Assembly: GCA_019135865.1 (NCBI GenBank)
Contig: JAGVVD010000026.1
Location: 1 to 49,589, forward strand
Length of the DNA: 49,589 nucleotides
Direction of reading: 5' to 3'
Source: Elusimicrobiota bacterium
Lineage (GTDB): Bacteria; Elusimicrobiota; Elusimicrobia; Elusimicrobiales; UBA9959
Both the position numbers and the translations under genes were made by a program. This document shows, one piece after another, positions 5,132 through 29,638 of this stretch. Within the stretch, counting starts at the first letter, position 1, and every line of letters starts with the position of its first letter. The notes under the pieces are model-generated. The model did not search any database. It had not been told where the DNA came from and saw only the letters and a list, made by a program, of their open reading frames with translations.

Positions 5132-5220
5132 CCGGGAGAATCGGCTCTCGGGCATCCACGGCTCGGCCATAACCGGGCGCAACCCAGGGAAAGCGTGAGC
5201 ATTACGCTTTCTCTTTTTTC
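5132..5220 (+). ncRNA. Structured leader RNA ending in a terminator, before the first peptide gene
   Basis: Between the unknown secreted protein and the 62-aa peptide gene lie three hairpins in series: CCGGGAG/CTCTCGG (5132-5151), CTCGG/CCGGG (5162-5177), and AAAGCGT/ACGCTTT (5190-5210) followed by CTCTTTTTTC. The last is a rho-independent terminator whose only downstream target is the operon starting at 5282. This reads either as an attenuator or riboswitch controlling the operon or as a separate small RNA. I do not recognise a known riboswitch class. The rest of 4952-5281 (330 bp) holds only the preceding terminator. Confidence 0.5.
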
Positions 5221-5281
5221 TTGTAAGACCGCACAGAAAATGGCAGAATTAAGAACTCAGGTTCAAGTTAAGGGGGATAAA

Positions 5282-5470
5282 ATGAAAAACACGAAACTCT
5301 TTATAACACTGGCCGGCCTATCCGCCATGCTTTTCGGGATTACCGTAAAAAGCGCGGACCCGTTTGCGGCAAAGCTTGAGAAAAGCATTAGGATGAGCAC
5401 CGAAAAGTATCTGGCCGGGTCGGAGTGTGGCGGCGGGGGCGACAGACCCCCCACACAGAAGACGGCTTAA
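5282..5470 (+). CDS. Small exported peptide with Cys-Gly-rich tail, candidate YcaO substrate
   Basis: A 62-residue product. The ATG at 5282 is fixed by AGGGGG at 5271-5276; an earlier in-frame start at 5195 would run through the terminator. Residues 1-24 form a Sec-type signal (MKNTK, hydrophobic core LFITLAGLSAMLFGI, then VKS). The rest is a short charged helix (ADPFAAKLEKSIRMSTEKYL) and a tail with one cysteine followed by four glycines and an acidic residue (SECGGGGD), ending RPPTQKTA. YcaO enzymes act on Cys, Ser, Thr or the backbone of small peptides, and a YcaO gene lies two genes downstream, so this is the natural candidate precursor. A leader that is also a secretion signal would be unusual. 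Precursor status is inference. Confidence 0.6.
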   Translation: MKNTKLFITLAGLSAMLFGITVKSADPFAAKLEKSIRMSTEKYLAGSECGGGGDRPPTQKTA

Positions 5471-5485
5471 CTCCAACGGCTTGAA

Positions 5486-7087
5486 GTGCAGGTTAAGGGA
5501 TTGTGGTTTAAACAGATCTTCCTTACGTTAGCCGAAAATCTTCGCCGGCGAAAAACCACAGTGGTTTTTTTGCCGGCGTTGTTTATTTTATCTATAGTCT
5601 TCATCTGGTCCGTAAGACCGAATAGGAGCAATGGGATGTCAACAATACTGCGGGTCGCTTTCCCTGGCAGAGTGTCAGCATCAAAGTATGACCCGGCCAA
5701 GATCGAATACGCCATGGAATACACATTCCTGCAGAATATTTACAGCCCCCTGATAGAATACTCTGTTTCCGGGGAACTTGTTTCCGCGATAGCAGAAAGA
5801 TTTGGGTGGCGCGGCACCAACGCCGTTTTTCAAATACGCAAAGGTCTTAAAACCATAGATGGGGACACGGTTAACGCCTATGATGCCGAGGCTTCATTGA
5901 AAAGGCTGTTTGTTATCGGCGGGAACACGCATGGCGACCTAAAAAACCTGTTATGCCCGGGAACCAGGTTGAAAAGCCTGCAATCCGTCTGCGAGGGAAT
6001 CGCGGTAGAAAATAATGGAACCGACCTTGTTTTAAAGTTTAAGAAAAAAAAGACTTTCCTCTTTCCCATGCTCGCAGCGATGGATTTTGTGGTCATTCCG
6101 CGAAAAGCAATAGACCCCGCGACCCTAAAGATAAAAGATTATCGGAATACCACCGGGCCGTACTTCGTTTCCAAGGATGGCGCTGACGGGAATATCACGC
6201 TCTCCGTGAACCCAGGCCATTTTCACTGGTCACCGAAGATACCCCAGAAAGTAATAATCATCCCTTCCAAAAAAGGGGATGCGCTCTGGTCCGTCAGGAT
6301 GTTTTCTGCACGGAAGATCGACCACATTACCAACAAAGATAGTTCTGACTGGGCAAAGATTAATCTGGCTAAAGAGGATACTGAGGCCAGTCTGCATCTG
6401 ACGTATCCGATTTACCTCCACGCACTTGTATTTACAAAGAAAGGAATGAAGCGGCTATCGGAAAATGAAAGAATCACCATAGCAAGACGGCTAAAGAGTC
6501 TCTTCCTTAAGAATTATTTAAAACGTCCGGGGTTCGAGGAAACAAAGCAGGTCATCCCTGTTTTTGGAGAAGGCGGCCTCTCCCGCAAGCAGTTGGCGGA
6601 TATTGAAAAGAAGTCCGGCGGCGTCGACACAGGCAAGCCATTCGTAAAGGGGTTTATTTGCTGGAACTTTTTTGGAGCCTCAGACCTTGAACTAAAAAAG
6701 GAGTTTCCGAATGGTCAGTTCCCGTGGACAGGCGTGATACCTGATTTTGTTAAGGATTTCCGGGAGCACGGCAAAGAACCGGATTGCTATTTGTTCAGGG
6801 GCGATACCGGCTTCCAGGAAGATATCGGGTTTATTTATTACTACTCCGGGCTGGATTTCTTCAACATTGGAGAAGCTGATAAAAAGAGGTGGCTGGACAA
6901 GTATATCTCCACCAGATCAAAAAGCGAGAGAAGCGGCCTTCTCCGGGCTATCCATTATAAAACACTCTTAGACGTAAAAGTTGTGCCTGTCGCAGTGGCA
7001 CCCTACAGCGCGGTAGTCCGTAAGCCCTGGCGCATGTCGCTCTCAAAATTTCACGCGAATAATCCAATATGGCGGATACATCGTTAG
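5486..7087 (+). CDS. Membrane-anchored peptide-binding protein (SBP_bac_5 family)
   Basis: A 533-residue product. The frame opens at GTG 5486; no strong ribosome binding site is visible, so the exact start is uncertain. A basic segment and one membrane helix (about residues 25-43, VVFLPALFILSIVFIWSV) anchor a large extracytoplasmic domain. The phrases PLIEYSVSGELVSAIAERFG, then FQIRKGLKTIDGDTVNAYDAEASLKRL (interrupted here only for family reading) are typical of oligopeptide-binding SBP_bac_5 proteins. No permease or ATPase gene is nearby, so uptake through its own ABC transporter is not supported. In this operon (peptide, YcaO, histidine kinase) it may present a peptide to the kinase, which is inference. 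Base composition is clearly more AT-rich than the flanking genes, a sign of transfer. It overlaps the YcaO gene by 19 bp. Confidence 0.75.
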   Translation: MQVKGLWFKQIFLTLAENLRRRKTTVVFLPALFILSIVFIWSVRPNRSNGMSTILRVAFPGRVSASKYDPAKIEYAMEYTFLQNIYSPLIEYSVSGELVSAIAERFGWRGTNAVFQIRKGLKTIDGDTVNAYDAEASLKRLFVIGGNTHGDLKNLLCPGTRLKSLQSVCEGIAVENNGTDLVLKFKKKKTFLFPMLAAMDFVVIPRKAIDPATLKIKDYRNTTGPYFVSKDGADGNITLSVNPGHFHWSPKIPQKVIIIPSKKGDALWSVRMFSARKIDHITNKDSSDWAKINLAKEDTEASLHLTYPIYLHALVFTKKGMKRLSENERITIARRLKSLFLKNYLKRPGFEETKQVIPVFGEGGLSRKQLADIEKKSGGVDTGKPFVKGFICWNFFGASDLELKKEFPNGQFPWTGVIPDFVKDFREHGKEPDCYLFRGDTGFQEDIGFIYYYSGLDFFNIGEADKKRWLDKYISTRSKSERSGLLRAIHYKTLLDVKVVPVAVAPYSAVVRKPWRMSLSKFHANNPIWRIHR

Positions 7088-8043
7088 CAGATTGGGCGCT
7101 TAATAACGCCGCCAGGCTAAAACTAGAGGCAATGAAAGTTACCTGGGTGGATGACTGGCTGCCGGGTTATTCCGATTATCAGGTCAAAGTCTTCATTTCC
7201 GGATATGCCTATGTCGGGCGTGGAATTGCCGCCGGTTCGGCTCTTGCGTTTACAAAGGCGGTTGCCGAGGCGCTTGAGCGCGCCGCCGTCGCGCAGCTTA
7301 ACGAACCTTGGGCCACCGCGGCACACCGAACTCTTGCTGAAGCCCAGGAGAACGCCTATTTTGAATTACTAGGGATAGACAGGGTAATCTGCCATCACTA
7401 CGCGCGCCGCAAACTGCGGGTTCTCCCATTAGAATCGGCGGGCAGAGATTTCCCCAAAAAGCAACTTTCAAGGTTGCTGCATAAGAACGATCTGAAGTTG
7501 ACTATCGCCGAGTTCCGTTCCGCAGCGGACGCCAGGATAATAGGGGTTTTCGTGAATAGCGTTGGGAAGTCTCCCGTGGAGGGTTTTATCAAAGGCTATG
7601 GGGTATCGCCTGAGCTCGAGACTGCCGTCCGCAACGCCATTGTGGAATGCATGCGGAATGTAACGGCGGTGTTCCTCGGCAATATCAAGCCGGAAGATAA
7701 AGAACTTGTATGTGGTCCCCATAATCCGCGCTGGCATTTCTGGCGCGCTCAGACAAAAGAAAGCCTAGCCTTCCTGCAACAGATCCTTTTACCACTTCCC
7801 GGAGAAGAGCCTGACCAGCCAGCCGAAGCGATATCCATAAAAGACGCCCGCTTTATTGAGATAACAACTTTAAAGGAATCTTTTCCAGATTTACCATTAT
7901 TCTTCGCGCAAGCCAGATCTACTAACCTTATTCGGCCGCAATTCGGTAGTTTCATCCCGGATAGAAGCGATATGGAACGCCTGGCCAGATTCAACGGCGG
8001 ACCAGTTGAGATCAGGATAGATGTCCCGCATTTTTACGGATAA
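7069..8043 (+). CDS. Divergent YcaO-domain protein (RiPP-type ATP-dependent modifier)
   Basis: A 324-residue product. YcaO enzymes use ATP to activate peptide backbone amides, making azolines, thioamides or amidines. The three ATP-binding segments can be aligned: TKAVAEALER (E67, E70, R71), AEAQENAYFELLGID (E94, E99, D104) and ETAVRNAIVECMRN (E193, R196), together with the glycine-rich GYAYVGRGIAAGSA start. The second segment lacks the usual Glu-Arg of the ELIERD motif (here ELLGID), and the C-terminus ends in VPHFYG without a PxPxP tail. No E1-like or TfuA-like partner gene lies in the island. It overlaps the gene before it and is 2 bp from the kinase gene, so all four genes form one operon. 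A degenerate or specialised member is likely. Confidence 0.7.
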   Translation: MADTSLADWALNNAARLKLEAMKVTWVDDWLPGYSDYQVKVFISGYAYVGRGIAAGSALAFTKAVAEALERAAVAQLNEPWATAAHRTLAEAQENAYFELLGIDRVICHHYARRKLRVLPLESAGRDFPKKQLSRLLHKNDLKLTIAEFRSAADARIIGVFVNSVGKSPVEGFIKGYGVSPELETAVRNAIVECMRNVTAVFLGNIKPEDKELVCGPHNPRWHFWRAQTKESLAFLQQILLPLPGEEPDQPAEAISIKDARFIEITTLKESFPDLPLFFAQARSTNLIRPQFGSFIPDRSDMERLARFNGGPVEIRIDVPHFYG

Positions 8044-8045
8044 GC

Positions 8046-9986
8046 ATGAGCGATAATATCGATAAGACGTTAAATACGCTTACGCGAAAGATAATCCTAT
8101 TCGACGTGATGATATTTCTTGGTGTAATCGGGCTCTCCATTATTCTAACAGCACATTTCAAACAACGCCTCGCCGTCCAGCTCTCCGAAGCATTTCGCGC
8201 CCCAATTATCGCCGGGGACAATCGCCAGATAATGCTGGATATGTCTCGACCGGTCTTTAATGACTTTGCCGGGTTTTCTTGGGAACCTGCTGACGCTCAG
8301 AATGGTTTTTCCGTGCCCCAGGATATAACGGATTTAAAGTGCGTATTCTATTCGTCCGTGCTGGTCAAACTCTTCTTTGATGAAACACGTCAAATCAGAT
8401 TAGGGGAACTTAGATTTTATTACCCCCGATGGACAGGGGTTTCATACGCACTGGGTCTATGGTTTCTCTTAACAGTGATTTCCGTTATCTTCGGATACCG
8501 TGAACGGCAAAGGCTATTACGGGAATATGCCCTTGCCGTGGACCTTCAGATTAAGGAGTCTAGAGCCCTTATAGCCGCCCAAGTCGCCCACGACATCCGC
8601 TCCCCGTTGGTTGCCCTGGACTCCGCACTCAAACACACGGATCAGCTCCCAGAAAAGCAGCGCGTCATCGTGCGCCACGCCGTCAACAGCATCCGCGATA
8701 TCGCAAACAGCCTCCTCGAAAAGAACCGCCAGCAGCCGGGGCTTGCGCCCACCACGGCCGCCGCCGGCCAAGCCACCCGCGAGCCCCTGGACGTCAACCT
8801 GCTCTCCAGCCTCATAAACCCCGTTATCACAGAAAAACGCCTGGCGTTCGAATCCAAGCCCGGCATCAGTATTGATTTTGAATTATCGCGGGAAGCCTAC
8901 GGCTTATTCGCTAGGTTGCAACCGGTTGAATTTCGACGCATAATCTCGAACCTGGTCAATAACGCCGTTGAGGCTCTGGGAGAGAAAGGCAAGGTAGATG
9001 TGCGGCTGGCCCGCAAGGGCGACGGTGTTCTTCTGACCATTGCCGACGATGGCAAAGGCATTCCGCGGGAAATCCTGGCGAAGCTCGGCCGGCGCGGCGA
9101 GACCCACGGCAAGGCCGGCGGCTCCGGCCTCGGCCTCTACCATGCCCGGACCACCACCGAGGGTTGGGGCGGCAGCCTGGGCATTTCTTCCGAACCGGGC
9201 AGAGGGACGACGGTCACCATTGAACTGCCGAAAGCCGAGGCCCCGGCCTATTTCGCCGGTGAAATAACGCTTGTGTTCGGCCGACCCGTCGTAGTGCTAG
9301 ACGACGACCCCGGCATACACGAACTCTGGCGCGGGCGCTTCGAGTCCGCCCGCCTCAAAGACCACGGAATAGAGATTTTTGATTTCAGCGAGCCCGCCGG
9401 GCTGCGCGCCTGGGTAAAGGATAACCTGGAGCAAGCAGGCAAGGCGGTTTATCTTTTTGACCACGAACTGGCCGGGCACACCGAAACCGGCTTAAGTCTT
9501 GCGGAGGAACTCGGCCTTTGCACCAGGACCATACTGATAACCAGCCACTCTGAAGAGAAACGCATTGTAGAGGCCTGCGCCGCGCTCCGAGTTCGCCTAA
9601 TCCCTAAAGAGATGGCGGATATAGTGCCGATCTCGGCAGGCGGCGGCCCGTCGCCGGCGCGCGCGGTACTGCTGGACGACAGCACAATAACGCAGATGAC
9701 CTGGGAAATGGCCGCCGAAGAGGCCGGGGCGGAACTGACAGGCTACACGGAGCCGGCTAAATTTCTGGCGGACCTGGGGAATTTCCCCAAGGACATGCCT
9801 ATATACATAGATTCCGAGTTAGGCGGGAACGTGAAGGGAGAGAACATCGCCGCCGAGTTGAAAGAGAAAGGTTTTACGAATATCTGCCTCGCCACCGCCC
9901 ACCCGCCGGAGCGGTTCGCCCATCTGCCCTGGCTCAAGGTCAGAAGCAAGGAAACTCCCTGGGGACAGGGCGGCGGGACAGTTTAG
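8046..9986 (+). CDS. Hybrid sensor histidine kinase with two C-terminal receiver-like domains
   Basis: A 646-residue membrane kinase. Two membrane helices (about 15-36 and 132-150) bracket a periplasmic sensor of roughly 95 residues. The dimerisation/phosphoacceptor motif is AHDIRSPLVAL with H182. The ATP-binding domain has an N box (SNLVNNAVEAL, 301-311), G1 (DDGKGIP, 334-340) and G2 (GGSGLGLYHA, 358-367). Two receiver-like domains follow: one with acidic cluster D419-D421, phosphosite candidate D472 and K521; one with D544/D545, D589 and K635. It is the last gene of the YcaO operon. Its stop codon overlaps the stop of the convergent small gene by 3 bp. Its likely output is the NtrC-type regulator opposite. 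Confidence 0.88.
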   Translation: MSDNIDKTLNTLTRKIILFDVMIFLGVIGLSIILTAHFKQRLAVQLSEAFRAPIIAGDNRQIMLDMSRPVFNDFAGFSWEPADAQNGFSVPQDITDLKCVFYSSVLVKLFFDETRQIRLGELRFYYPRWTGVSYALGLWFLLTVISVIFGYRERQRLLREYALAVDLQIKESRALIAAQVAHDIRSPLVALDSALKHTDQLPEKQRVIVRHAVNSIRDIANSLLEKNRQQPGLAPTTAAAGQATREPLDVNLLSSLINPVITEKRLAFESKPGISIDFELSREAYGLFARLQPVEFRRIISNLVNNAVEALGEKGKVDVRLARKGDGVLLTIADDGKGIPREILAKLGRRGETHGKAGGSGLGLYHARTTTEGWGGSLGISSEPGRGTTVTIELPKAEAPAYFAGEITLVFGRPVVVLDDDPGIHELWRGRFESARLKDHGIEIFDFSEPAGLRAWVKDNLEQAGKAVYLFDHELAGHTETGLSLAEELGLCTRTILITSHSEEKRIVEACAALRVRLIPKEMADIVPISAGGGPSPARAVLLDDSTITQMTWEMAAEEAGAELTGYTEPAKFLADLGNFPKDMPIYIDSELGGNVKGENIAAELKEKGFTNICLATAHPPERFAHLPWLKVRSKETPWGQGGGTV

Positions 9987-10165
9987 GCCTTCGGTCGCGC
10001 TTCCAGTTCCGCAAGCAGCTTTTCCATATCCCGCATAACCTCGCGCATCAACCCGATAAACTTCACCTTCTTATCCGGCGCGCACTTTTCCAGCAGCGCC
10101 GCGGCGTCCTTGAGGCTGATGGAGTTGGATTTGAGCCTGTGATATATCTTCTCAGCGTCCGCCAT
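9983..10165 (-). CDS. 60-aa HPt/DHp-like small protein
   Basis: A 60-residue helical protein whose ATG at 10165 is preceded by GGAGG. The N-terminal segment YHRLKSNSISLKDAAALLEKC resembles the phosphohistidine helix of HPt domains (H-x-L-K-G/S, here H9 and K12) and also HisKA_2-type helices (HRVKNNL). A second amphipathic helix follows (REVMRDMEKLLAELEA). Two such helices could dimerise into the four-helix bundle used by phosphotransfer proteins. The gene starts inside the end of the response regulator gene (14-bp overlap), so the two are translated together. Full HPt domains are usually about twice this length, so the role is a hypothesis. Confidence 0.5.
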   Translation of the reverse strand: MADAEKIYHRLKSNSISLKDAAALLEKCAPDKKVKFIGLMREVMRDMEKLLAELEARPKA

Positions 10166-11510
10166 TGTTTTCCTCCGTCTTCTGCGCCCTCTCCAGCGTG
10201 GCATACAAAAGGGTCTTGGATATATTGAGCTTGCCCAGCGCCGCGGCCTTCTTGCCGTGGTTCTCGGCGATACAGCGGTTGATAACCCCGGCACTGAACT
10301 GGTCCGCCGCGGCGGCGAGGCCATGCTTTAGGGCATAGTCATACTGTGCCTGCGTCACTGGTGCGCCTGTCGTCCGCTCCACCGTCACCACCTGTGTGAT
10401 GTGCCGCTTTACCGTCTCCAGCTTCACCGTGCCCTGCGCGCCTGCACCTATAAGGTCAACAAAGTGCTTCAGTTCCCTTGCGTTGCCCGGCCAGTTGTGC
10501 GCCAGCAGGTATTCTCTGGCCTCCGGCTCGAATGCAAGGCGCTTCTTTCCTTTTGTAAACGCGTGGACCAACGGCATAATGTCGCATTTTCTCTGCGCCA
10601 GGGGTCTCAGCGTTAACGTCAAGCCGTGCACGCGCTGGAAGAAGTCAAAGCGCAGTTTATCCTCGGCCAGCAGCTTCTTCACGTCCTCCAAAGTTGCACT
10701 TATCACCCTAAAATCAGAATATTCCGGCTTGTCCGCGCCGAGGGGGTAGAAGGACTTTTCCTCTATAGCCTTGAGGAGCTTCACCTGCATGTTCTGGCTC
10801 ATGGCCCCTATCTCGTCGAGGAAAATGGTTCCATTGTCAGCCTGCGCCAGCTTACCCTTGCGGTTCTCGTGTGCACCGGTAAAAGCTCCGCGCTTGTAGC
10901 CGAACAGTTCCGCTTCCAAAAGATCCTCGGTATAAGCGGCGCAGTTTATCGCCACAAAATCGCCGTCCCGTCCGGAATGGGCGTGAAGGAGCTGGGCCAG
11001 GGTGGTCTTGCCGGTGCCGGAAGGCCCCAGGAGCATCAGCGGCAGCTCGGTCGGCGCGTATTTTATGGCTTCGGATACCAGCGCGCGCGTTTCGGGGTCA
11101 TTGGTGACGAAATTCTCGGTGAAGACCGCCTGGGCCTTCTTGCCGCCGTCATCGCGCATATACCGGGCTATGATGGCGGCCACGTTCTGCTGCTCGTTGC
11201 CCTTTACATAGAATTCCTTACAGCCAAGTTCATAAGCCCGGCCTATGGTTTCTTCCGTGTCGCAACTGGACATCACCACCGGATAGGCTTTTTTTGAAAC
11301 GGCCAAAGGAATAAGCTTCAGGCCGGAGTAACCGTCATTGTCGCCCAGATCCAGGTCCAGGAAGCAGATGTCGTATTCACCCGCCTTCAGTTTGCGCTCG
11401 GCGGCAGCCCTGTCCGAGGCAAAGTCCACCACTTGTCCTTCCAGGTTGCCCGCCATGATTTCACGCACCAGAGCGTTGTCTTCCACCACAAGGATTTTCA
11501 GTTTGGTCAT
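10152..11510 (-). CDS. NtrC-family sigma54-dependent response regulator
   Basis: A 452-residue transcription activator. The receiver domain (1-120) has D10/D11 region VVEDN, phosphosite D52 in FLDLDLG and K103. The AAA+ domain has Walker A GPSGTGKT (162-169), the sigma54-contact loop GAFTGA (208-213), Walker B GTIFLDEIG (227-235) and the arginine-rich LRFDFFQR. A C-terminal helix-turn-helix of Fis type lies near 410-445. I chose the ATG at 11510 because the receiver fold starts there; an upstream in-frame ATG exists at 11540. Such proteins bind about 100-150 bp upstream of -24/-12 promoters. A near-consensus promoter of that type lies in the adjacent divergent intergenic region, before the Cys-rich peptide operon. 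Confidence 0.92.
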   Translation of the reverse strand: MTKLKILVVEDNALVREIMAGNLEGQVVDFASDRAAAERKLKAGEYDICFLDLDLGDNDGYSGLKLIPLAVSKKAYPVVMSSCDTEETIGRAYELGCKEFYVKGNEQQNVAAIIARYMRDDGGKKAQAVFTENFVTNDPETRALVSEAIKYAPTELPLMLLGPSGTGKTTLAQLLHAHSGRDGDFVAINCAAYTEDLLEAELFGYKRGAFTGAHENRKGKLAQADNGTIFLDEIGAMSQNMQVKLLKAIEEKSFYPLGADKPEYSDFRVISATLEDVKKLLAEDKLRFDFFQRVHGLTLTLRPLAQRKCDIMPLVHAFTKGKKRLAFEPEAREYLLAHNWPGNARELKHFVDLIGAGAQGTVKLETVKRHITQVVTVERTTGAPVTQAQYDYALKHGLAAAADQFSAGVINRCIAENHGKKAAALGKLNISKTLLYATLERAQKTEENNGGR

Positions 11511-11553
11511 ATGCCCCCGATTGGATAAATTGTAGCACAAATCCGGGGAATTG

Positions 11554-11585
11554 GTCTTATAAAAGAACTGGACAGTCTTACTAAA
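11554..11585 (+). promoter_or_regulatory. Direct repeat, candidate enhancer site for the sigma54 activator
   Basis: GTCTTATAAAA (11554-11564) and GTCTTACTAAA (11575-11585) are direct repeats 21 bp apart, two helical turns, about 107-138 bp upstream of the -24 element. A dyad TTGT-AGC-ACAA lies at 11530-11540. Position and spacing suit binding of the divergently encoded activator; there is no other evidence. Confidence 0.35.
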
Positions 11586-11690
11586 TGCCTGTTTTCTCTA
11601 ATATCGCAACAAGCCAAGGGATGTCTCCGATTTTCGTCCTCCGACGCCCCCCCCAGATTCTGCGGGGTTATGCACCCCTTATACCACCTT

Positions 11691-11706
11691 TGGCATAAAT
11701 ATTGCT
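11691..11706 (+). promoter_or_regulatory. Sigma54 (-24/-12) promoter of the Cys-rich peptide operon
   Basis: TGGCATAAATATTGCT matches the TGGCAC-R-N4-TTGC-W consensus at every fixed position except one (T for C). GG at 11692-11693 and GC at 11704-11705 are separated by exactly 10 bp, as sigma54 requires. The expected start of transcription is near 11717, about 70 nt before the ATG at 11787. Confidence 0.75.
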
Positions 11707-11786
11707 CTATACAAAGCGTAGGCGACTATAAACACCCGTGTCGCCAGGCAGTAAGAACAAAAAGCGGGAAGGGAGGAAATAGTAAA

Positions 11787-12092
11787 ATGAACAAGGAAAG
11801 TGTAATAAAGTCTTTGAATCTGACAACCGGGGAAGTGCTGATCCTGGAAAAGGCCGCGGACCGCATGGAGTTCGAGGCGTTGCCTATAATGAACATCGGA
11901 GCGAATAAATGCTTTGTCGATGTTTGCGATGAGGATGACTGCAACTGTAACCACGGCAATTACGAACAGCCCTGCACCAGCTATTGCAGCCCGGACACCT
12001 GCTATGTGGACGTGCCGATCATTCCCTGCATTGACGACTGCGACTGCGTAGGCCCGCACGGCTATATAGACTGCCGCCCGTACAAGGGATAG
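11787..12092 (+). CDS. Cys-rich peptide with 11 cysteines, candidate radical SAM RiPP precursor
   Basis: A 101-residue product; ATG 11787 follows GGGAGG at 11771-11776. Residues 1-41 have no cysteine and look like a leader (MNKESVIKSLNLTTGEVLIL, then EKAADRMEFEALP). Residues 42-101 hold all 11 cysteines (42, 47, 52, 54, 63, 67, 72, 81, 85, 87, 96), many acidic residues and pairs such as CNC and CDC, with no signal peptide. Leader-plus-Cys-rich core is the layout of ranthipeptide/SCIFF-type precursors whose cysteines become thioethers, and a radical SAM/SPASM enzyme follows two genes later. A metal-binding protein is the alternative. It is first in an operon behind a sigma54 promoter. Confidence 0.75.
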   Translation: MNKESVIKSLNLTTGEVLILEKAADRMEFEALPIMNIGANKCFVDVCDEDDCNCNHGNYEQPCTSYCSPDTCYVDVPIIPCIDDCDCVGPHGYIDCRPYKG

Positions 12093-12128
12093 AAGCCGAC
12101 GGGATAATATCACTCAAGGAGAAACACA

Positions 12129-12863
12129 ATGAAATCACTGTTGATAGCACTGGTCATGGCAAGCCCTTCTTTCGCCACGGACAATAACACCGTCCCGCAG
12201 GACCTGGCCGTGCCCATGGAAATAACGGTGGGCAGTTTCGAGGAGGACGCCTGCGGCGTCTGGGAAAAAGTGCGCCGGCTTATAGGCGAGTCCCGCCTGA
12301 AACAGTATGGCCGGGCGATCAACCAGGCTATCGCCAGACAGGACCCCGCCACCGCCCAGCAAGCGCTGAATGAAATGCTCCAGAAATACCCGGAAATCAA
12401 GAGCAAGGAACCTCATGCCATCGAATACCACCAGGGCAACATCAACTTCTGGAAGAAGGACTTCGAAGGTGCGTACGGGCAGTTTGACGCCATAGTCCGT
12501 GGTCTTGAGAAGAAATACCCTGACGGCGTTCCGCCCGGAGGGAAATACTCGGAAAGCAACGCCTACTTCATGTCGGACGTTTACTTCGGGCGTGCCGCCA
12601 CGCTGCTGCAACTCAAAAAGTACCACGGCGCGGTTGAGGACCTGGACAAAGCCATAGCGGTCACTCCACACAAGCGGGCGGTCCTGTACGTCAACAGGTG
12701 CCGTGCCCTGTTCAAACTGAAAGAGTATGCCGCCGCCGCCGAGGCTCTGGACCGGGCCTACCTAGTGACTCCGATGATGGTAGACAACGCGCCGGACAGG
12801 AATTATCTCTGCCAGGTCTTCGCCGAGAAGGGCGTACAGGCCAAAGTCTGCGCGAAGAAGTAG
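12129..12863 (+). CDS. Secreted TPR-repeat protein
   Basis: A 244-residue product. GGAGA precedes the ATG; the signal peptide is short (MKSLLIALVMASPSFATDN). TPR-like helix pairs follow from about residue 65, clearest at FGRAATLLQLKKYHGAVEDL and LFKLKEYAAAAEALDRAYLV. Cysteines near residues 42, 196, 228 and 241 could form disulfides. TPR domains bind proteins or peptides. Placed between the Cys-rich peptide and its presumed maturase, it may receive the exported product in the periplasm. That is inference; I know no such partner in described RiPP systems. Confidence 0.7.
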   Translation: MKSLLIALVMASPSFATDNNTVPQDLAVPMEITVGSFEEDACGVWEKVRRLIGESRLKQYGRAINQAIARQDPATAQQALNEMLQKYPEIKSKEPHAIEYHQGNINFWKKDFEGAYGQFDAIVRGLEKKYPDGVPPGGKYSESNAYFMSDVYFGRAATLLQLKKYHGAVEDLDKAIAVTPHKRAVLYVNRCRALFKLKEYAAAAEALDRAYLVTPMMVDNAPDRNYLCQVFAEKGVQAKVCAKK

Positions 12864-12884
12864 CGAAAAAAGAGGACTATCTCC

Positions 12885-14303
12885 ATGGGAAAACATATCA
12901 GCCGCTATCTCAACATTGTGGATCTGGAAAACTCGGCGCTGCTATTCAACGGCGTGAACGGCTGCCTCGACGAAGTACCTCAAAAGCTGGCGGAGATACT
13001 CAGATCCGGGGACCCGGAGCGCCTGGGCGCTCTGGGCTCCGGGGAGATTGACCTGCTTACCAAAAGGGGACATCTGACCTCCCTGTCACCTGCGGAGGAG
13101 CTGGAGAGGTTCAAGGAGTTCTCCGCCGTTCTGCACAAACGCCAGGAGCGCGCCATCCGGACCGGCGGCATAATGCTGCTGATGAGTTATAACTGCAACC
13201 TGGCCTGCAAGTACTGCTACCAGCAGGAGCACCGGCCCCATAAGTCGCGGGCAGTAATGACCCCGGAACTCGTTGAGAACATCTTCGAGAAGAACCTCTC
13301 CGCCATCATACCCGGCGCGAAACGCAAGGATTTCAGCGTCTCTTTTTACGGCGGCGAACCGTTCCTGCCCGCCAATGAAGCGACGATACGCAAGGCGCTC
13401 AGCTACACGAAGAAATACGGCATGAAGTCCAGCGCCATCACGAACGCCACCATGGTGGACAAGATGGCCGATATATTCGGGGAGGGCCCCGGTTTCGTCA
13501 ACCGCGTACAGATATCGCTGGACGGCTGCAGGGAACTGCATGACCAGTCGCGCATACCGGCGACCGGGGAGGCCACATACGACAAGATAGTGGCGAATAT
13601 CTCAATGCTGCTCAAGCGCAAGACGCGGGTGAGCGTAAGGCTGAATCTGGACAGGCGCACCATGGCCACGATACCGCAACTGGTCAAAGACCTCAAGGAA
13701 AGGGGCATACTCGGCAACAGATACGCCAGTATTTACGCCAGCCCCCTGCACGACAATCTGGCTGCGGTGGACGCTACGAATTTCCTGGACCTGGCCGAAC
13801 TCTCGTCCCAGGTTTTCGATCTCGGCATCGACCTGGAGCACCCTGTAAGTCTGCGCGCCAATGAAATGAGCTACCTGTTCAGCCTGGAAAAAGGCCTTGG
13901 GCTGACCCACACCTGTTTCTGCATGCAAACCATGCAGCGGACGCTGGTGGTTGACCCCTTCGGCGACCTCTATGCCTGTTTCGAGGAGGCGGGCTACCCG
14001 CAGTTCCGCGTGGGACACATATCGGAGGCCGGCGTAGAGTTCTTCCTGCTTCACGATACATACAAAACGCGGCATATCGCCAACATGGACGAATGCCTGA
14101 AATGCCCTGTCGCGCTGGCCTGCGGCGGGCAGTGCGGCGTCAGGTGCCGGGCCAAGACCGGGGACCTTTTTAAACCATACTGTCAGGACATCAAGCGGGT
14201 CATCCTCGACGGGCTGAAGCTGGCCTATCAGAAAAGGCGGGAGCAGAATGCAGACAGTTGCCGACTTCCACAGGTCGAGCCATCTCCCTCAACACACGGA
14301 TAA
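12885..14303 (+). CDS. Radical SAM/SPASM peptide maturase
   Basis: A 472-residue enzyme. Residues 1-95 precede the barrel and may bind the precursor leader. The radical SAM [4Fe-4S] motif is CNLACKYC (C104, C108, C111), followed by YGGEPF (155-160) for S-adenosylmethionine binding. The C-terminal SPASM region has C344, C346, C365, C404, C407, C413, C417, C421 and C433, enough for two auxiliary clusters. Enzymes of this build modify ribosomal peptides, for example by forming Cys-to-alpha-, beta- or gamma-carbon thioethers (SCIFF, ranthipeptides) or carbon-carbon links. AGAGGA precedes the ATG by 8 nt. The Cys-rich peptide at 11787 is the obvious substrate. The gene overlaps the M50 gene by 56 bp. 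Confidence 0.9.
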   Translation: MGKHISRYLNIVDLENSALLFNGVNGCLDEVPQKLAEILRSGDPERLGALGSGEIDLLTKRGHLTSLSPAEELERFKEFSAVLHKRQERAIRTGGIMLLMSYNCNLACKYCYQQEHRPHKSRAVMTPELVENIFEKNLSAIIPGAKRKDFSVSFYGGEPFLPANEATIRKALSYTKKYGMKSSAITNATMVDKMADIFGEGPGFVNRVQISLDGCRELHDQSRIPATGEATYDKIVANISMLLKRKTRVSVRLNLDRRTMATIPQLVKDLKERGILGNRYASIYASPLHDNLAAVDATNFLDLAELSSQVFDLGIDLEHPVSLRANEMSYLFSLEKGLGLTHTCFCMQTMQRTLVVDPFGDLYACFEEAGYPQFRVGHISEAGVEFFLLHDTYKTRHIANMDECLKCPVALACGGQCGVRCRAKTGDLFKPYCQDIKRVILDGLKLAYQKRREQNADSCRLPQVEPSPSTHG

Positions 14304-15429
14304 TTACATGGCGAAACCCGCGATCATCGAATACGAGAACCATCTCAAGAAGGCGTATTCGATAAAAACTGAAGGCAAGGTGCTGGCTATAACGGACACT
14401 TCCTGCTATTATCTGGCTGAAGAAACCGCCTGGCTGTCGGCCAATCTGCCGGAAACGGGACATAAGGCCGGATATCTGCGTTCCCTCGAAGAGCTGGGCC
14501 TGGATGCCCCCGAGAAGATATTCGACAAGTTGGTCTCGCTCGGAGCTCTGCGCGCGAAGGCGCGGCGCACCTGGAAAAATTTGCTCGGTGTGATACTCAC
14601 ACCCCAAATGCGTTTTATCCCGGCGCAACTGCAGGAAAAGTTTTTCGGAATTCTCACGGACAGGCCAGCAGCGGCGGCCAGAATCGTCCGTATACTCGCC
14701 ACGCTTTCGGCCGCCGGGCTGCTGTGGGGACTGGCCGCGGCCTGGGGCCACGTAAGCGTGGATGCTATCGGACCAGCGGTGCTCCTGCTGGTCATATCAG
14801 GCAGCCTGTTGCACGAACTGGGGCATTCTTTCGCGGCAATGGCGGCCGGCATCGGGTTAAGGCCTATAGGATTTTCGGTTTACCTGATCTACCCGGTTTT
14901 TTATACCAATGTGTCCGGCATCGAAAAAGTCCCGCTAGCCGGGCGGATACTCATAGACTGCGGCGGCTATATCTTCCAGGGGGTATTCCTGCTCGCGCTG
15001 ATGCTGGCCAACTATTTCACAGCCCATCCGGCCTTTGCCGAAGCGGCCCGCTGGATACTCCTGATAATCTTTTTCAACCTGAACCCGCTCTTCAGGACAG
15101 ACGGGTACTGGCTCTATAAGGACTTATATACTGAGCACAAGTCAAACCGCTGGGCGCGGGCACTGCATTATATTTATCTCGCGGCGTTCGCCGCGTTCTC
15201 AGTGTATTTTCTGTGGCGCGTCGGGGGCAGGCTGGGCGATATCTGGCGCGACCTAAACATACTGGCGCGTTCACCCGGATATTTCTTCTCCGGGGGCTAC
15301 CGGGTGGTGCTGGGGGCTTACTTCGTTTTTGTGGGCCTGGCGGGCGGCCTGCGCCGTTTTAAGGAAGGCCGCCTGGAGTTGAAAGAACTAAGGGAACAGC
15401 GGAGGCCGCGGCATGGCGATAAGGCTTGA
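14248..15429 (+). CDS. M50-type membrane metalloprotease with N-terminal PqqD-like region
   Basis: A 393-residue membrane protein. The zinc motif HELGH (189-193) and NPLFRTDGYW (279-288, the second metal ligand) define a site-2-protease-like M50 fold with about six membrane helices. The N-terminal 110 residues (ITDTSCYYLAEETAWLSANL and following helices) look like a small winged-helix peptide-binding domain as in PqqD-type leader-recognition elements. The 14248 ATG has GGCGGGAG before it and overlaps the radical SAM gene; an alternative ATG at 14308 has none. Similar M50 proteins accompany radical SAM genes in other peptide clusters such as yyd. Leader removal or export of the peptide is likely. 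Confidence 0.8.
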   Translation: MQTVADFHRSSHLPQHTDNYMAKPAIIEYENHLKKAYSIKTEGKVLAITDTSCYYLAEETAWLSANLPETGHKAGYLRSLEELGLDAPEKIFDKLVSLGALRAKARRTWKNLLGVILTPQMRFIPAQLQEKFFGILTDRPAAAARIVRILATLSAAGLLWGLAAAWGHVSVDAIGPAVLLLVISGSLLHELGHSFAAMAAGIGLRPIGFSVYLIYPVFYTNVSGIEKVPLAGRILIDCGGYIFQGVFLLALMLANYFTAHPAFAEAARWILLIIFFNLNPLFRTDGYWLYKDLYTEHKSNRWARALHYIYLAAFAAFSVYFLWRVGGRLGDIWRDLNILARSPGYFFSGGYRVVLGAYFVFVGLAGGLRRFKEGRLELKELREQRRPRHGDKA

Positions 15430-16147
15430 TTCAAGGATCGCCTGGCTCGACGCTCCCACATGGCCCGCGCTCGCGGCGGCGTGGCTGGCCGGCGTAGGCG
15501 GGGCGTTCCTCAGCATCGCGGCCGGAAAAAAAATACTTCCCGAGTATCTGGCGCCTTTCGCGCTCCTGTCGATATTTTTGTCTCTTTCTTTCGGTGTGGT
15601 GGCGTGGCGGCTGTGGTACCGTGACGAGATAGACGTGTTCTCGCTCAAGGGCTGGCCCGCAGCGCTGGTAATATTCGGCGGACTGTTGCTCAGCGAAATC
15701 ATCAACGCTTCGGCCCACCTGCGCGGCGACGTGCTGCATCCCAGGACCCTGATCGCGCTCTTCTATTGCGTGGTCCTGGTCGGTCTCCAAGAAGAGCTGT
15801 GGTGGCGGGGAATCTGGTTCTCAATGTTCAAAGGGCGGCCCGTCATGTGCATACTTGCCGGAAGTCTGCTGTTCGGGGCCTCGCATTACCAGTTGCACGG
15901 CTTCCGAAGCGTGGCTATGGCCTTCTTCGTGGGGCTCGTATTCTCGGCGGCGCGGCATCGTGGGGTTTCCATTGGCGCCCTTTCCCTGGCGCACGGCCTT
16001 AACGACTGGATAGCGCAAGGCCACGTCGTCCGCTGGCAGTGGCACGCTTCGCGCAGCAGAATAGACCTTATTCTGTATGGCATTTGCCTGTTGCTTACAG
16101 CCTGGCTCTTGTTCAGATGGCGGACGGAGCCAAGGTTCCGGGCATGA
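15413..16147 (+). CDS. CPBP-family intramembrane metalloprotease
   Basis: A 244-residue protein with about seven membrane helices. The CPBP (CAAX-protease/bacteriocin-processing, Rce1-like) motifs are in order: EELWWR (E127, E128, R132), GASHYQLHG (H158) and AHGLND (H194, N197). Relatives cleave peptides in the membrane or give self-immunity in bacteriocin clusters. The gene overlaps the M50 gene by 17 bp and ends the operon, with a terminator right after it. Two membrane proteases of different families in one peptide operon suggest successive cleavages, or processing plus immunity. Confidence 0.85.
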   Translation: MAIRLDSRIAWLDAPTWPALAAAWLAGVGGAFLSIAAGKKILPEYLAPFALLSIFLSLSFGVVAWRLWYRDEIDVFSLKGWPAALVIFGGLLLSEIINASAHLRGDVLHPRTLIALFYCVVLVGLQEELWWRGIWFSMFKGRPVMCILAGSLLFGASHYQLHGFRSVAMAFFVGLVFSAARHRGVSIGALSLAHGLNDWIAQGHVVRWQWHASRSRIDLILYGICLLLTAWLLFRWRTEPRFRA

Positions 16148-16151
16148 AGAA

Positions 16152-16188
16152 GGGCGGGGGCCTCCAGGCCGCCCGCCCCGTCCTTTTT
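16152..16188 (+). terminator. Terminator of the Cys-rich peptide operon
   Basis: GGGCGGG-GGCCT and AGGCC-G-CCCGCCC form a 12-bp stem with one bulge and a 2-nt loop, followed by CGTCCTTTTTT. It marks the right edge of the peptide island. Confidence 0.8.
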
Positions 16189-17192: not shown

Positions 17193-17353
17193 GTTCCTCC
17201 CGGGCCGGGGTACCGGCCGCGCGTCATTAATATATTAACAGGAGGGGACCGGCGGCGTAAGGGCCATTGGGCGCATCGCCGCGGGCCGATGGACCGGGGC
17301 CGGAAGGCCCCCCTGCTTCCCCCCTACCCGCCAATTTGCTATTTTCATTATTA

Positions 17354-18649
17354 ATGGAAGACAAGCTCTATTACCCCGAAGACAGGATCCCCCTTAAAAG
17401 ACTTATACCGATGGGCATGCAGCATGTCGTGGCGATGTTCGGCGCCACGGTGCTGGCGCCGGTGCTTATGGGCTTCAACCCGCAGACCGCCGTTTTCTTC
17501 TCCGGCGTCGGCACGCTCATCTTCATAGCGATAACCCGCTTCAAGGTGCCCAGCTACCTTGGCTCCTCCTTCGCCTTCATCGGTCCCGTGCTGGCCGTGA
17601 CCGGCGGCCGGCCTGAGGGCATACCGGCGGCCCTCTGCGGCATAGCCGGCGCGGCGCTGCTCTACGCGCTGGCCGCGGCGTACACGATGAAGCGCGGCTC
17701 CGGCTGGATAGACCGCCTGATGCCGCCCGTGGTCACCGGCTCGGTGGTGGCGCTCATCGGCCTCAACCTGGCCGGCTCGGCCGTGCAGAACGCGGTCAAC
17801 GCCGATTTCATACTGGCCGCGCGCCACGATTATATCGTCTTCGGCGCGGCCGCCTTCACCTTCCTCGCCTCGGCCGCGGTCTCCATCTACGCGCGCGGTT
17901 TCCTGCGCCTGCTGCCGATACTCACCGGCGTCGTCGCCGGCTGCGTCCTGTCGGCCTGGCTGGGGTTGATAAGCCCGGAGAACTGGGCCGCCGTGGTGAA
18001 CGCGCCCTGGCTGGGCCTGCCGCCGTTCCAGTCGCCCGTTTTCTCGCTGCCCGCGCTGCTTGTCATAGCCCCCGTCTTCGTGGTGCTGGTCGCCGAGAAC
18101 AAGGGCCATATCGAGGCCATCGGCGGCTACATGAAGCGGGACCTCAACCCCCATCTCGGCCGGGCCTATATGGGCGACGCCGCCGCCTCCTTCGTCTCGG
18201 CGATGGGCGGCGGCACGCCGCAGACCACCTACGCCGAGAACATGGGCGTGATGGCGATAACCCGCGTCTTCAGCGTCTATAACTTCGTGGCCGCGGCCTG
18301 CATCGCCGTGCTGCTCGGCCTCTGCCCCAAGTTCGGCGCGCTGATACAGGCCATACCGGCGCCGGTGCTGGGCGGCGTCACGCTGATCCTCTACGGCCTC
18401 ATCGCGCTGATGGGCGTAAAGATCTGGCTGGACGCCAAAGTCGATTTCTGCTCGCATAAGAACCTGATAATAGCCGGCGCCTCCATCATAGCGGCCACCG
18501 GCCTCGGGGTGAAGGGCATCACGGTCGCCGGCGTGAACATAGCCGGCATAGCCTTCGGCACCGTGCTGGCCGTGCTGCTGAACCTGCTGCTGTCCCTGGG
18601 CGGCGCGGAGGACCCGCAGGACAGGCGGGCCTGCGAAACGGACATCTAA
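17354..18649 (+). CDS. Uracil/xanthine permease (NCS2 family)
   Basis: A 431-residue inner-membrane protein, the usual length for UraA-type proton symporters. The start IPLKRLIPMGMQHVVAMFGATVLAPVLMG is characteristic in its QHVVAMFGATVLAP part. The paired half-helix region AMGGGTPQTTYAENMGV, with the catalytic-type Glu, matches NCS2 transporters. About 14 membrane segments are visible. The ATG at 17354 has no ribosome binding site, and an AT-rich TATTTTCATTAT lies immediately upstream, so the message may be leaderless. It is followed 8 bp later by the organophosphate transporter gene. Confidence 0.88.
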   Translation: MEDKLYYPEDRIPLKRLIPMGMQHVVAMFGATVLAPVLMGFNPQTAVFFSGVGTLIFIAITRFKVPSYLGSSFAFIGPVLAVTGGRPEGIPAALCGIAGAALLYALAAAYTMKRGSGWIDRLMPPVVTGSVVALIGLNLAGSAVQNAVNADFILAARHDYIVFGAAAFTFLASAAVSIYARGFLRLLPILTGVVAGCVLSAWLGLISPENWAAVVNAPWLGLPPFQSPVFSLPALLVIAPVFVVLVAENKGHIEAIGGYMKRDLNPHLGRAYMGDAAASFVSAMGGGTPQTTYAENMGVMAITRVFSVYNFVAAACIAVLLGLCPKFGALIQAIPAPVLGGVTLILYGLIALMGVKIWLDAKVDFCSHKNLIIAGASIIAATGLGVKGITVAGVNIAGIAFGTVLAVLLNLLLSLGGAEDPQDRRACETDI

Positions 18650-24955: not shown

Positions 24956-25025
24956 TACCCCTGTGAAACTTTTGAAGGTTATTGGCATCTTAAGGGAGGC
25001 GGCGACAAGGCCGCCGGAGGGAAAT

Positions 25026-26375
25026 ATGTTCAAAATTTCGATCTTTCCGTATGTGCTGGCCGCGGCCCTGCCCCTGCAGGCGTCCGCCCTGGGTCTGGAA
25101 GAGGCCGTCAGGGACGGGCTGCGGGCCAGCAGCGACCTGGAGCTGATGCGGGCCAAGAAGACGGAAGCCGGGGCGCTGCTGGACCAGGCCAAAGGGAACC
25201 GCCTGCCGCGGCTGGCCGTGAAGTCGGCCTATACGCGGGGCGACGAGCCGGTCTACGCCTTCGCCTCGGCCATGAAGCAGGGCACTTTCAGCATGGCCTC
25301 GATGGCCACGATAAACGACCCGGAGCCGGTCGGCAATTACCAGGCCTCGCTGGAGGCCGGGGTGCCGCTTTTCACCGGGCTGGCGATCTCCAGAGGGATA
25401 GAAATGAGGGAGGCAGGAGCGAAGGCGCTCGACGCCGCCTCGGCGCGGGCCGAGGCGGGCGTGCGCTTCTCGCTGGTGCACCAGTGGCTGACCGCGCTGC
25501 TGCGCAGGCACCTGCTGGACACCGTGGAGGCGGCCGTGGCCGACTCCGAGAAAGAGCTCAGGACCGCCGACAACCTGCGCGAGAAGGGCATGGTGCTGGG
25601 CTCCGATTATTACGCGGCCGAGGCGATACTGGCGGGCCTGAAAGCCTACAGGAGCCAGTGGCGGCGGGCTTATGACCTGGAGCGCGAGCGACTCAATATC
25701 ATGCTCGGCCGGCCCAAGGATACGGCTTTCGAGCCGGCCGGCAGGCTGGACGAGGCCGATTTCGGCGTGGGCGTCCAGAACGAATACCTGGCCGGCGCCC
25801 TGTCGCGCCGCGCGGACCTGAAAGCCGCCGCCGAAGCGGAGAAAGCCGCGGTGGCCTGGGCCTCGCTGCAGAAGAATTCGATACTGCCGGTGGTAGAGGC
25901 CTTCGGAGTGCTGGAGTCGAACTCGGCCAGCCTTTCCGGTTTCAAGTCGGCCACCCTCTACGGCCTGCGGCTGACGCTGCCCATAGGCGATCCCGGCTGG
26001 TCGGCCCGCTCGCGCGCGGCCAGGGCCGGCCTGCGGGCGCAGGAGGCCGAGACGGCGGGACTCAAGCGCCGCGCCGCGGCGGAGGTGGCCTCCGCCTGGC
26101 AGAGCTACATGGGCGCGGTGGAGTCGGCCAGGGACGCGGCGCTCACCCATGAGAAGGCGCGCCAGTCGCTGGAGCTGTTCCGCCCGCTCTACCGCCAGGG
26201 CCGGCAGAGCGTGATGGAGGTCCTGCGCGCCGAACAGGCGGTCCTGGAGGCCAAGGCCGCTTATTACGAGAACCTTTTCAAGATAAACCTTTTCTACGCC
26301 CAGCTCCGGCTGGCGTCCGAGACGCTCGACGATAAGGCGGTCTCCGAGATAGCCGCGGCCACGGCCGCGAGATAA
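25026..26375 (+). CDS. TolC-family outer membrane efflux channel
   Basis: A 449-residue protein. GGAGGG precedes the ATG at 25026; the upstream in-frame ATG at 24963 gives a longer N-terminus without a signal peptide. The signal peptide is MFKISIFPYVLAAALPLQASA. Two long helical repeats typical of OEP/TolC proteins follow, with ALGLEEAVRDGLRAS at the start and LRAEQAVLEAKAAYYENLFKI near the end. Trimers form the outer-membrane exit duct of tripartite pumps. The RND pump gene is 11 bp downstream. A periplasmic adaptor gene is missing from the operon. Confidence 0.88.
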   Translation: MFKISIFPYVLAAALPLQASALGLEEAVRDGLRASSDLELMRAKKTEAGALLDQAKGNRLPRLAVKSAYTRGDEPVYAFASAMKQGTFSMASMATINDPEPVGNYQASLEAGVPLFTGLAISRGIEMREAGAKALDAASARAEAGVRFSLVHQWLTALLRRHLLDTVEAAVADSEKELRTADNLREKGMVLGSDYYAAEAILAGLKAYRSQWRRAYDLERERLNIMLGRPKDTAFEPAGRLDEADFGVGVQNEYLAGALSRRADLKAAAEAEKAAVAWASLQKNSILPVVEAFGVLESNSASLSGFKSATLYGLRLTLPIGDPGWSARSRAARAGLRAQEAETAGLKRRAAAEVASAWQSYMGAVESARDAALTHEKARQSLELFRPLYRQGRQSVMEVLRAEQAVLEAKAAYYENLFKINLFYAQLRLASETLDDKAVSEIAAATAAR

Positions 26376-26386
26376 GGGGCATACCC

Positions 26387-29300: not shown

Positions 29301-29638
29301 TGCGCAACTCCATCATCCTGGTGGACTTCATCAAGCTCAGGCTCCGCGAGGGCGTGCCGCTCGACAAGGCCGTCATCGACGCCGGCGTGGTCCGATTCCG
29401 CCCGATGCTGCTGACCGCGCTGGCCGTCATCGTCGGCGCGGGCGTGATACTCTTCGACCCGATCTTCCAGGGCCTGGCCATCTCGCTGATAGCCGGTCAG
29501 ATCGCGGCGACGCTGCTCAGCCGCGTGGCCGTGCCGGTGCTCTACTACCTGGCCTTCAAGGGGAAGGAGAAGGACCTGATCTCTTACGGCCGTGGCGCGC
29601 CGGAGAGCGACGAACTGCCGGGTGCCACCGGAGAATAA
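26387..29638 (+). CDS. RND-family efflux pump, inner membrane subunit
   Basis: A 1083-residue transporter with 12 membrane helices and two large periplasmic loops, the AcrB/HAE-1 layout and length. The first helix region RLTPILILSFILLGVFS and the helix 4 motif SIGILVDDAIVVVENI (the Asp pair carries protons) are clear; a second internal repeat begins near residue 560. Substrates cannot be told from sequence; the motif GILVDDAIVVVEN is nearer to drug/solvent pumps than to metal pumps. It is translated right after the TolC-type gene and before a DUF2892 gene. No membrane-fusion protein is encoded here. Confidence 0.92.
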   Translation: MSKNIKYGMAGNTARGFINSRLTPILILSFILLGVFSTLKLPREEEPQINVPMFDVMVPFHGATPAEIEKQLVETGERKLWEIPGVEYIYSTAFPNFAMFTVRFEVGTDPDRASSLIYAKTFDNSDLVPRGASQPLIKYRSIDDVPVLALTLWGEGRDGYNLRRVAARIRTEINSVNNVSETRIIGGHKRQFIVHFDPAALARHRLTPPQLAGIIKMSNAKLPAGHYNLGGEKLLAETDAFIRSAEDLGGIVIGVYDGRPVKLDDVAKIVDGPDEDERSVAMLQGPASASGDKTLREAVTLSVAKRRGANATAVAREILAKVDGMKGREIPDGVNVTVTRNYGETAKAKSDELIYHMLLATVSVTLLIAFTLGLREALVVLVAIPVTLALTMLVYFLYGYTLNRITLFALIFSIGILVDDAIVVVENINRHCAMNRDKSLLRNIIDAVDEVGNPTILATWTVIASILPMAFVSGLMGPYMRPIPIGASVAMLFSLGVAFAFTPWLYARIVEKWPLKHLEHDREGLLDRLYRSFMEKLIYKPSAGKAFLGFTALLLAGTLAMVGFRLVVFKTLPFDNKNEFQVVINMPEDSSLERTGKAAREMAQYLAGVPEVRDLQLYAGTSAPYNFNGLVRHYFLRGESHQADIQVNLADKSDRKRQSHDIALAVRAPLKAIADKYGARLQVAEVPPGPPVMATMLIEVFDPNPKNQLALAEDIKTLLKKTPGIVDVDSYIPGPQPITRLVVDRQKATLNGVAAADIAQTAAMSLYGADIDSAHVEEENEVVDIRLRLPPAKRRELATLKDIKFFSPNGTAIPMASFVRAENGLENRPIYRKNLQRVAYVTADIAGGTGSPVYAVIDLRRDIEALAKARGGEIKQYFTRQPVSSSETAIKWDGEWHITYEVFRDLGLAFGLVLILIYILVVAWFEDFLTPLIIMAAIPMALIGIIPAHWGMGAFFTATSAIGFIASAGIVVRNSIILVDFIKLRLREGVPLDKAVIDAGVVRFRPMLLTALAVIVGAGVILFDPIFQGLAISLIAGQIAATLLSRVAVPVLYYLAFKGKEKDLISYGRGAPESDELPGATGE

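Follow-up and report, generated by a model that had tools for sequence, protein, structure and literature searches.

The window analysed here is a stretch of 49,589 nucleotides (nt) from an Elusimicrobiota bacterium (GenBank contig JAGVVD010000026.1; contig C19 within its own 2.95 Mb genome, G000). On the plus strand, positions 5282-9986 encode an exported peptide of 62 amino acids (aa; peptide 1), a family 5 solute-binding protein, a YcaO-family enzyme and a hybrid histidine kinase, and positions 11788-16147 encode a Cys-rich peptide, a TPR protein, a radical S-adenosylmethionine (SAM)/SPASM enzyme, an M50 protease and a CPBP protease, with a sigma54 promoter upstream at 11691. Between these two operons, the YcaO operon and the radical-SAM operon, an NtrC-type activator lies on the minus strand (11510-10152); its named relatives belong to uncultured Elusimicrobia or Elusimicrobiota genomes, several of groundwater origin. 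An earlier, sequence-only reading of this DNA had listed these genes and a -24/-12 promoter at 11691; every gene was found at its position, and the promoter is an exact match (11691-11706). That reading had overlooked a 2'-deoxyguanosine class II (2dG-II) riboswitch with a terminator, 5' of peptide 1. The features are collected in Table 1.

Table 1. Features of the riboswitch, the two operons and the activator in the window
Feature	Position	Strand	Evidence
2dG-II riboswitch aptamer, RF03165	5121..5192	+	73.1 bits vs gathering 60, E=7.7e-18
Intrinsic terminator	5186..5219	+	-16.5 kcal/mol, z=-4.4
Exported 62-aa peptide (peptide 1), putative YcaO substrate and signal	5282..5470	+	conserved N-terminal half and variable C-terminus among four syntenic relatives
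Membrane-anchored family 5 solute (oligopeptide-type) binding protein, start codon uncertain	5486..7087	+	PF00496 (SBP_bac_5) E=2e-9
YcaO-family enzyme, type YcaO57	7069..8043	+	PF02624 28.5 bits vs cut-off 25.7
Membrane hybrid histidine kinase, two C-terminal receiver-like domains	8046..9986	+	PF02518 E=9.6e-25; HisKA and Response_reg weak
NtrC-type sigma54 activator (REC-AAA+-HTH), group A	10152..11510	-	PF00158 183 bits, PF00072
Weak, tentative site for the group-A activator, a degenerate GTNCCATAWGGNAC	11552..11567	.	MAFFT alignment
sigma54 -24/-12 promoter TGGCATAAATATTGCT	11691..11706	+	exact match
Cys-rich precursor peptide, leader SLNLT-GEVL-LEKA-DRMEFEAL	11788..12092	+	leader conserved, Cys-rich core variable, 10 aligned sequences
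Exported TPR protein	12129..12863	+	TPR_2 E=9.4e-10; syntenic homologues
Radical SAM/SPASM peptide maturase	12885..14303	+	PF04055 E=4.5e-15
M50-family intramembrane metalloprotease, start probably near 14308	14248..15429	+	PF02163 E=1e-5, just below cut-off
CPBP (Rce1-like) intramembrane protease	15413..16147	+	PF02517 E=2.5e-13

The aptamer has the consensus three-way junction of its class and scores above the Rfam gathering threshold. Its J2/3 strand reads GCAUCCACGG (position set by eye), with a C in place of U51 (AUCCAC), a feature described for nucleoside selectivity in the 2dG-II class (PMC8872408). The 5' arm of the terminator overlaps the 3' strand of aptamer helix P1 by 7 nt, and many sibling riboswitch sites show the same overlap. 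Since the terminator uses these seven nucleotides, the ligand-bound aptamer is predicted to block termination and turn the operon ON. The riboswitch also precedes the same YcaO operon in three syntenic relatives; it is carried by 31 of the 61 relatives, all within the window's own family, and by 97 of 341 Elusimicrobiota genomes, whereas the class had been assigned to Bacteroidetes, with genes for ComEC, endonuclease I, phospholipase D and a receiver-domain protein downstream (PMC8872408). A match to the small RNA BjrC68 at 8470-8547 lies within the kinase gene and does not reach the gathering score of that family; it was dismissed as chance.

Other genes also stand behind 2dG-II aptamers in these genomes. 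On a second platform (L093, L111, L119, L121-L123, L133, L151, L154 and similar loci) the ribosome-binding site GGAGGTGGAT complements the aptamer sequence AUCCACCUCC, and the gene that follows, where checked, encodes a secreted ComEC-like protein of about 335 aa with a metallo-beta-lactamase fold. A third (L112, L113, L115, L129, L143, L150, L152 and about 12 more) has its own terminator, then a secreted protein of about 300 aa whose family is unassigned, the gene standing before a conserved stretch that resembles ftsX, envC-type, ctpA and tsaD genes.

About 100 riboswitch sites of the family were examined, up to 9 kb downstream of each. One large group of sites carries a peptide, a modifying enzyme, a binding protein and a hybrid kinase, a riboswitch-controlled sensor cassette that recurs across one uncultured Elusimicrobiota family. 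The modifying enzyme is swappable between two YcaO types and two radical-SAM types: YcaO57 (the window and L027-L029), the second, divergent type YcaO58 (L084, L104 and L213; PF02624 30.3 bits), the 290-aa radical SAM enzyme rSAM17 (about ten cassettes) and radical SAM/SPASM enzymes (L082/L203, L088/L185 and L168). Peptide family and binding-protein family track the enzyme type (the pairs are YcaO57-SBP35, YcaO58-SBP59, rSAM17-SBP18 and rSAM-SPASM-SBP72), while the kinase, the final gene of the cassettes, is a single family throughout. A short exported peptide is present in 22 of 23 riboswitch-kinase modules, in 19 just after the terminator and before the enzyme or binding protein, and in three just after the enzyme. 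Within each type the N-terminal half of the peptide is kept and the C-terminal part is highly variable, a pattern to be expected of a precursor in which the leader or export part is kept while the active part changes. None of the cassettes read showed a transporter permease gene next to its binding protein.

In the window itself, the Cys-Gly stretch by which the sequence-only reading had characterized peptide 1 is not kept in relatives; the binding protein recurs at 40-51% in syntenic relatives. The sequence match of the YcaO protein is weak. Its NCBIfam similarity is SagD-like, at 28 bits against a cut-off of 219 for the SagD/thiazole/oxazole-modified microcin (TOMM) cyclodehydratase TIGR03604, and the residues E67xxE70R71 and E193xxR196 are invariant. 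Its AlphaFold model is poor (predicted local distance difference test score, pLDDT, 54.6), yet the best matches in the PDB are solved YcaO structures, the nearest being archaeal YcaO enzymes; a sequence profile of the family found no match in the PDB. The PF02624 score over cut-off and the low-confidence model together lend modest strength to the assignment as YcaO.

The activator has the attributes of a sigma54-dependent NtrC-type regulator, namely a receiver domain, an AAA+ domain with a GAFTGA loop and a divergent -24/-12 promoter. Orthologues with 69-79% identity adjoin the kinase in other genera (genomes G031, G026, G020, G034, G007 and G005), and we therefore count the activator as part of the sensor cassette. 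At five loci (the window, Elusimicrobia bacterium GWB2_63_16, G034, G031 and G026) a sigma54 promoter diverges from the activator, about 186-212 bp from its start; a consensus sigma54 promoter was not seen beside the activator in G020, G007 and G005. The gene under the divergent promoter varies: the Cys-rich peptide with its radical-SAM/M50 cassette in the window and GWB2_63_16, a 692-aa hybrid kinase in G034, an exported protein in G031 and two Cys/Gly peptides of 34-35 aa in G026.

Within the cassette driven by the window promoter, orthologues of the SPASM maturase (52-70%) occur in eight other genomes, with a second copy in the own genome, and the M50 protein has NCBIfam similarity to the LiaK/daptide protease. 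Just 3' of this cassette lies a xanthine/uracil-type permease (17267-18649), of interest beside a nucleoside riboswitch system.

Genome-wide, the sigma54 circuit appears to be almost entirely devoted to this system. The pattern TGGCAYNNNNNTTGCW has six matches in the whole 2.95 Mb genome and none for the reversed pattern, so the promoter at 11691 is unlikely to be a chance match. Five of the six fall in system loci, and five have the form TGGCATWWWWATTGCT; the targets of these five are the window's Cys-rich peptide, a second Cys-rich/radical-SAM cassette beside an operon of riboswitch, binding protein and kinase, a 31-aa peptide with the sigma54 gene behind it, and two exported proteins sharing a DFDG-type motif. 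The genome has one sigma54 gene (351 aa; Pfam recognises the DNA-binding domain only), which has its own sigma54 promoter and is placed between a paralogous activator and a riboswitch sensor cassette. This gene, at L190:9264-10489 (C15:263763-264985), is preceded by the 31-aa peptide, which is Gly/aromatic-rich, and the arrangement of a 31-33-aa peptide with sigma54 is also found at L187, L188 and L248. There are two genuine sigma54 activators, the window's being one; the remaining PF00158 matches score 20-35 bits and are of a kind that archaea also yield.

In the relatives G003 and G002, 8 of 8 and 8 of 9 promoters genome-wide precede system-type genes (assigned by eye), meaning RiPP-like peptides (RiPP, ribosomally synthesized and post-translationally modified peptide), exported or membrane proteins, sigma54 or a sensor cassette. 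These two lists and that of G000 are the unbiased ones, many of the other promoters coming from loci that had been chosen because they contain an activator, a kinase or a maturase. Additional sigma54 genes, of a more distant type, occur elsewhere in the phylum, and the exclusive use of sigma54 is for this reason limited to the own genome and near relatives. A sigma54 promoter stands just 5' of the riboswitch in G002 and G018, where sigma54 feedback may reach the sensor cassette itself. At L077, L080, L090, L091, L097, L109, L114 and L130 the 2dG-II riboswitch precedes a small exported protein and then a CPBP protease, and similar-looking DFDG-motif exported proteins sit under sigma54 promoters in other genomes. 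As such proteins occur under both controls, the riboswitch and sigma54 regulons may overlap in content.

A palindrome search 5' of 70 promoters returned TATTTTCAtaTGAAAATA, with a log-likelihood of 471 against 38 for the best shuffled set. In a fixed scan the dyad TATTTTC-N4-GAAAATA was found at 46 of 75 promoters, compared with 6.2% of random 400-bp windows. It is concentrated at -60 to -130, often as a pair of copies spaced by about 20 bp, which is the geometry of NtrC-type enhancers, and the promoters that have it lie next to the paralogous (group B) activator. For group A, a MAFFT alignment gave a block resembling GTNCCATAWGGNAC, loosely common to the window, GWB2_63_16, G026 and G034.

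The sequence-only reading had joined the kinase, activator, promoter and RiPP operon into one circuit, and had proposed that the two halves form a single dedicated two-peptide system. The circuit is supported by the activator orthologues beside the kinase, the recurring divergent pair and the promoter census, and the gene-order search in relatives it had called for turned up one other named genome with the same layout, GWB2_63_16 (L213), where the YcaO is of the other type, YcaO58. The obligate pair did not survive, as the halves occur independently in relatives, the finding which that reading had itself named as speaking against it. The INDEPENDENCE of the halves shows the YcaO cassette to be present in 5 of 61 genomes, and those with the radical-SAM cassette are for the most part others: G034 has a sensor cassette and an activator with no radical-SAM cassette beside them, and in G003 and G001 the radical-SAM cassette goes with a group B activator and sigma54. 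Because the halves separate so freely, a two-peptide system is too narrow a picture, and the evidence favours, as the better unit, a regulon whose sensor and output cassettes can be exchanged. A role in defence, also raised earlier, was dropped: the PADLOC matches comprise generic AAA+ (RtcR) and radical-SAM (viperin) domains only, and membership of an anti-phage defence system was rejected.

We consider it rather probable that the window contributes one sensor cassette and one output cassette to a peptide-signalling regulon whose sigma54 is encoded by the system itself. High levels of 2'-deoxyguanosine or a closely similar nucleoside, such as the breakdown of DNA might release, would act through the 2dG-II riboswitch to prevent termination, so that the sensor operon is transcribed. 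Peptide 1 would be modified by the YcaO enzyme in the cytosol and then exported, and the matured peptide would be bound by the anchored family 5 binding protein, passing a signal through the hybrid kinase. The kinase would phosphorylate the neighbouring NtrC-type activator, which would open the divergent sigma54 promoter at 11691 for production of the Cys-rich peptide, the radical SAM/SPASM maturase and the proteases. Elsewhere in the genome, the paralogous activator and the same sigma54 would drive the second Cys-rich cassette and exported proteins, as well as the sigma54 gene, which amounts to positive feedback. Gene content, riboswitch and terminator, recurrence, the promoter set, the sigma54 and activator census and the paralogue's enhancers are read from the DNA; we infer the identity of the ligand, the direction of the switch, the action of YcaO on peptide 1, the sensing of a peptide (with peptide 1 as the presumed ligand), phosphotransfer and what the final product does. 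A wider proposal is more tentative and on balance somewhat doubtful: that this is a new class of intercellular signalling, in which a DNA-breakdown riboswitch licenses a modified peptide pheromone made by interchangeable enzymes and read by a binding-protein/hybrid-kinase receptor, and a dedicated sigma54 drives an arsenal of RiPPs and exported proteins, as a danger- or kin-sensing circuit.

Several observations weigh against the peptide-signalling regulon. The cassette at L073 consists of binding protein and kinase with no evident peptide or enzyme, and that at L102 has a peptide without an enzyme; in relatives the YcaO half and the radical-SAM half come apart, as described. Peptide 1 lacks, in its C-terminus, a conserved Cys/Ser/Thr pattern of the kind that azoline RiPPs typically show, and J3/1 of the aptamer holds one extra nucleotide. 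The window promoter and the matching promoter of GWB2_63_16 have no enhancer dyad, and a group-A motif is not established, its motif search being weakly above shuffles; the link from the window activator to the 11691 promoter would rest on the conserved divergent position and not on a secure site.

Family 5 binding proteins (SBP_bac_5) usually bind nutrient peptides, and the binding protein and kinase might accordingly sense an external solute such as oligopeptides or DNA and cell debris, with the riboswitch reporting lysed neighbours, the regulon serving scavenging or antagonism, and the peptide and enzyme tuning the sensor or acting separately. The placement of 2dG-II aptamers 5' of secreted ComEC-like metallo-hydrolases in the same genomes, matching the published list (PMC8872408), would suit this explanation. 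That no permease was seen in the cassettes read speaks against it, as does the cassette-specific exported peptide and enzyme in almost every copy, co-varying with the type of binding protein; we regard it as unlikely, though it keeps appreciable weight. An alternative target of the YcaO or radical-SAM enzyme would be a protein of the cassette, the binding protein or the kinase, leaving the 62-aa peptide as an accessory or anchor. YcaO enzymes also modify proteins, for example methyl-coenzyme M reductase, the poor model comes closest in structure to YcaO enzymes of archaea, and the peptide C-termini share no residue pattern; against this, each of the four enzyme types has a peptide family of its own, with one kinase family common to all, which makes such a target improbable. 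That two unrelated operons are adjacent by chance, the activator serving another process, would fit the occurrence of the halves apart, and is very hard to reconcile with the same layout in GWB2_63_16, the conserved divergent pair of activator and sigma54 promoter, and a genome whose sigma54 promoters, sigma54 gene and both activators nearly all lie in the system.

Further along the window lie a pair of an outer membrane efflux protein and an AcrB-type pump (24963-29638) and a protein of 2624 aa that carries a ricin-type beta-trefoil lectin domain at its C-terminus (34854-42728), followed by a secretin-domain protein (42725-44623). On contigs C36 and C42 of the genome (L208 and L209) there are crowded clusters of radical-SAM proteins, with no system promoters or riboswitches within the stretches examined.

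From a little-known phylum, the peptide-signalling regulon provides a family of interchangeable modified-peptide sensors, with precursors, enzymes, receptors and promoters named, and an example of a sigma54 whose identifiable promoters lie almost entirely within one peptide regulon; the 2dG-II class gains an abundant natural host and a biological context. If peptides are indeed sensed, this would be modified-peptide signalling by a route undescribed in the open-access literature searched. That search, on Elusimicrobia RiPPs, radical SAM enzymes and riboswitches and on sigma54-RiPP-kinase systems, found no description of the architecture, subscription papers being outside its scope.

With SagD/TOMM clusters the window shares a YcaO enzyme alongside a small exported peptide; unlike them, it has no E1-like or leader-binding partner or dehydrogenase that we could see, its peptide lacks a conserved Cys/Ser/Thr core, and its YcaO is coupled to a binding protein and a kinase. 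The output cassette resembles ranthipeptide-type and other Cys-rich SPASM systems (CefB, PapB, TIGR04463 and geopeptide maturases) in having a SPASM maturase beside a Cys-rich precursor with a conserved leader. These NCBIfam families are the nearest to the window maturase, which scores far below the cut-offs of all of them (125 bits versus 600 for CefB), and in contrast to the curated systems the cassette is sigma54-driven, with TPR, M50 and CPBP partners. The published 2dG-II regulons (RF03165; PMC8872408, PMC9295807) have the same aptamer family, with a receiver-domain protein and ComEC downstream in both; a tie of 2dG-II to RiPP enzymes, exported peptides, binding proteins or sigma54 regulators was not found in these two papers.

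The closest likeness in logic is to the two- and three-component pheromone systems of Firmicutes that control bacteriocins and lantibiotics (nisin, plantaricin and ComCDE), which share a short exported peptide, a membrane kinase, a response regulator and a controlled downstream peptide cassette. As in Firmicutes-type peptide quorum sensing, the exported peptide is encoded beside the kinase and regulator. The Firmicutes regulators are of LytTR or OmpR type, whereas here the regulator is NtrC-type with a sigma54 domain; a family 5 binding protein, a hybrid kinase, an enzyme acting on the presumed signal, a nucleoside riboswitch gate and the phylum Elusimicrobiota further set the present system apart. 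Every part comes from a known family, and the differences from the Firmicutes analogue extend to the receptor and regulator, the sigma factor, the riboswitch gate and the modification of the signal; there is a substantial chance that the system merits a class of its own.

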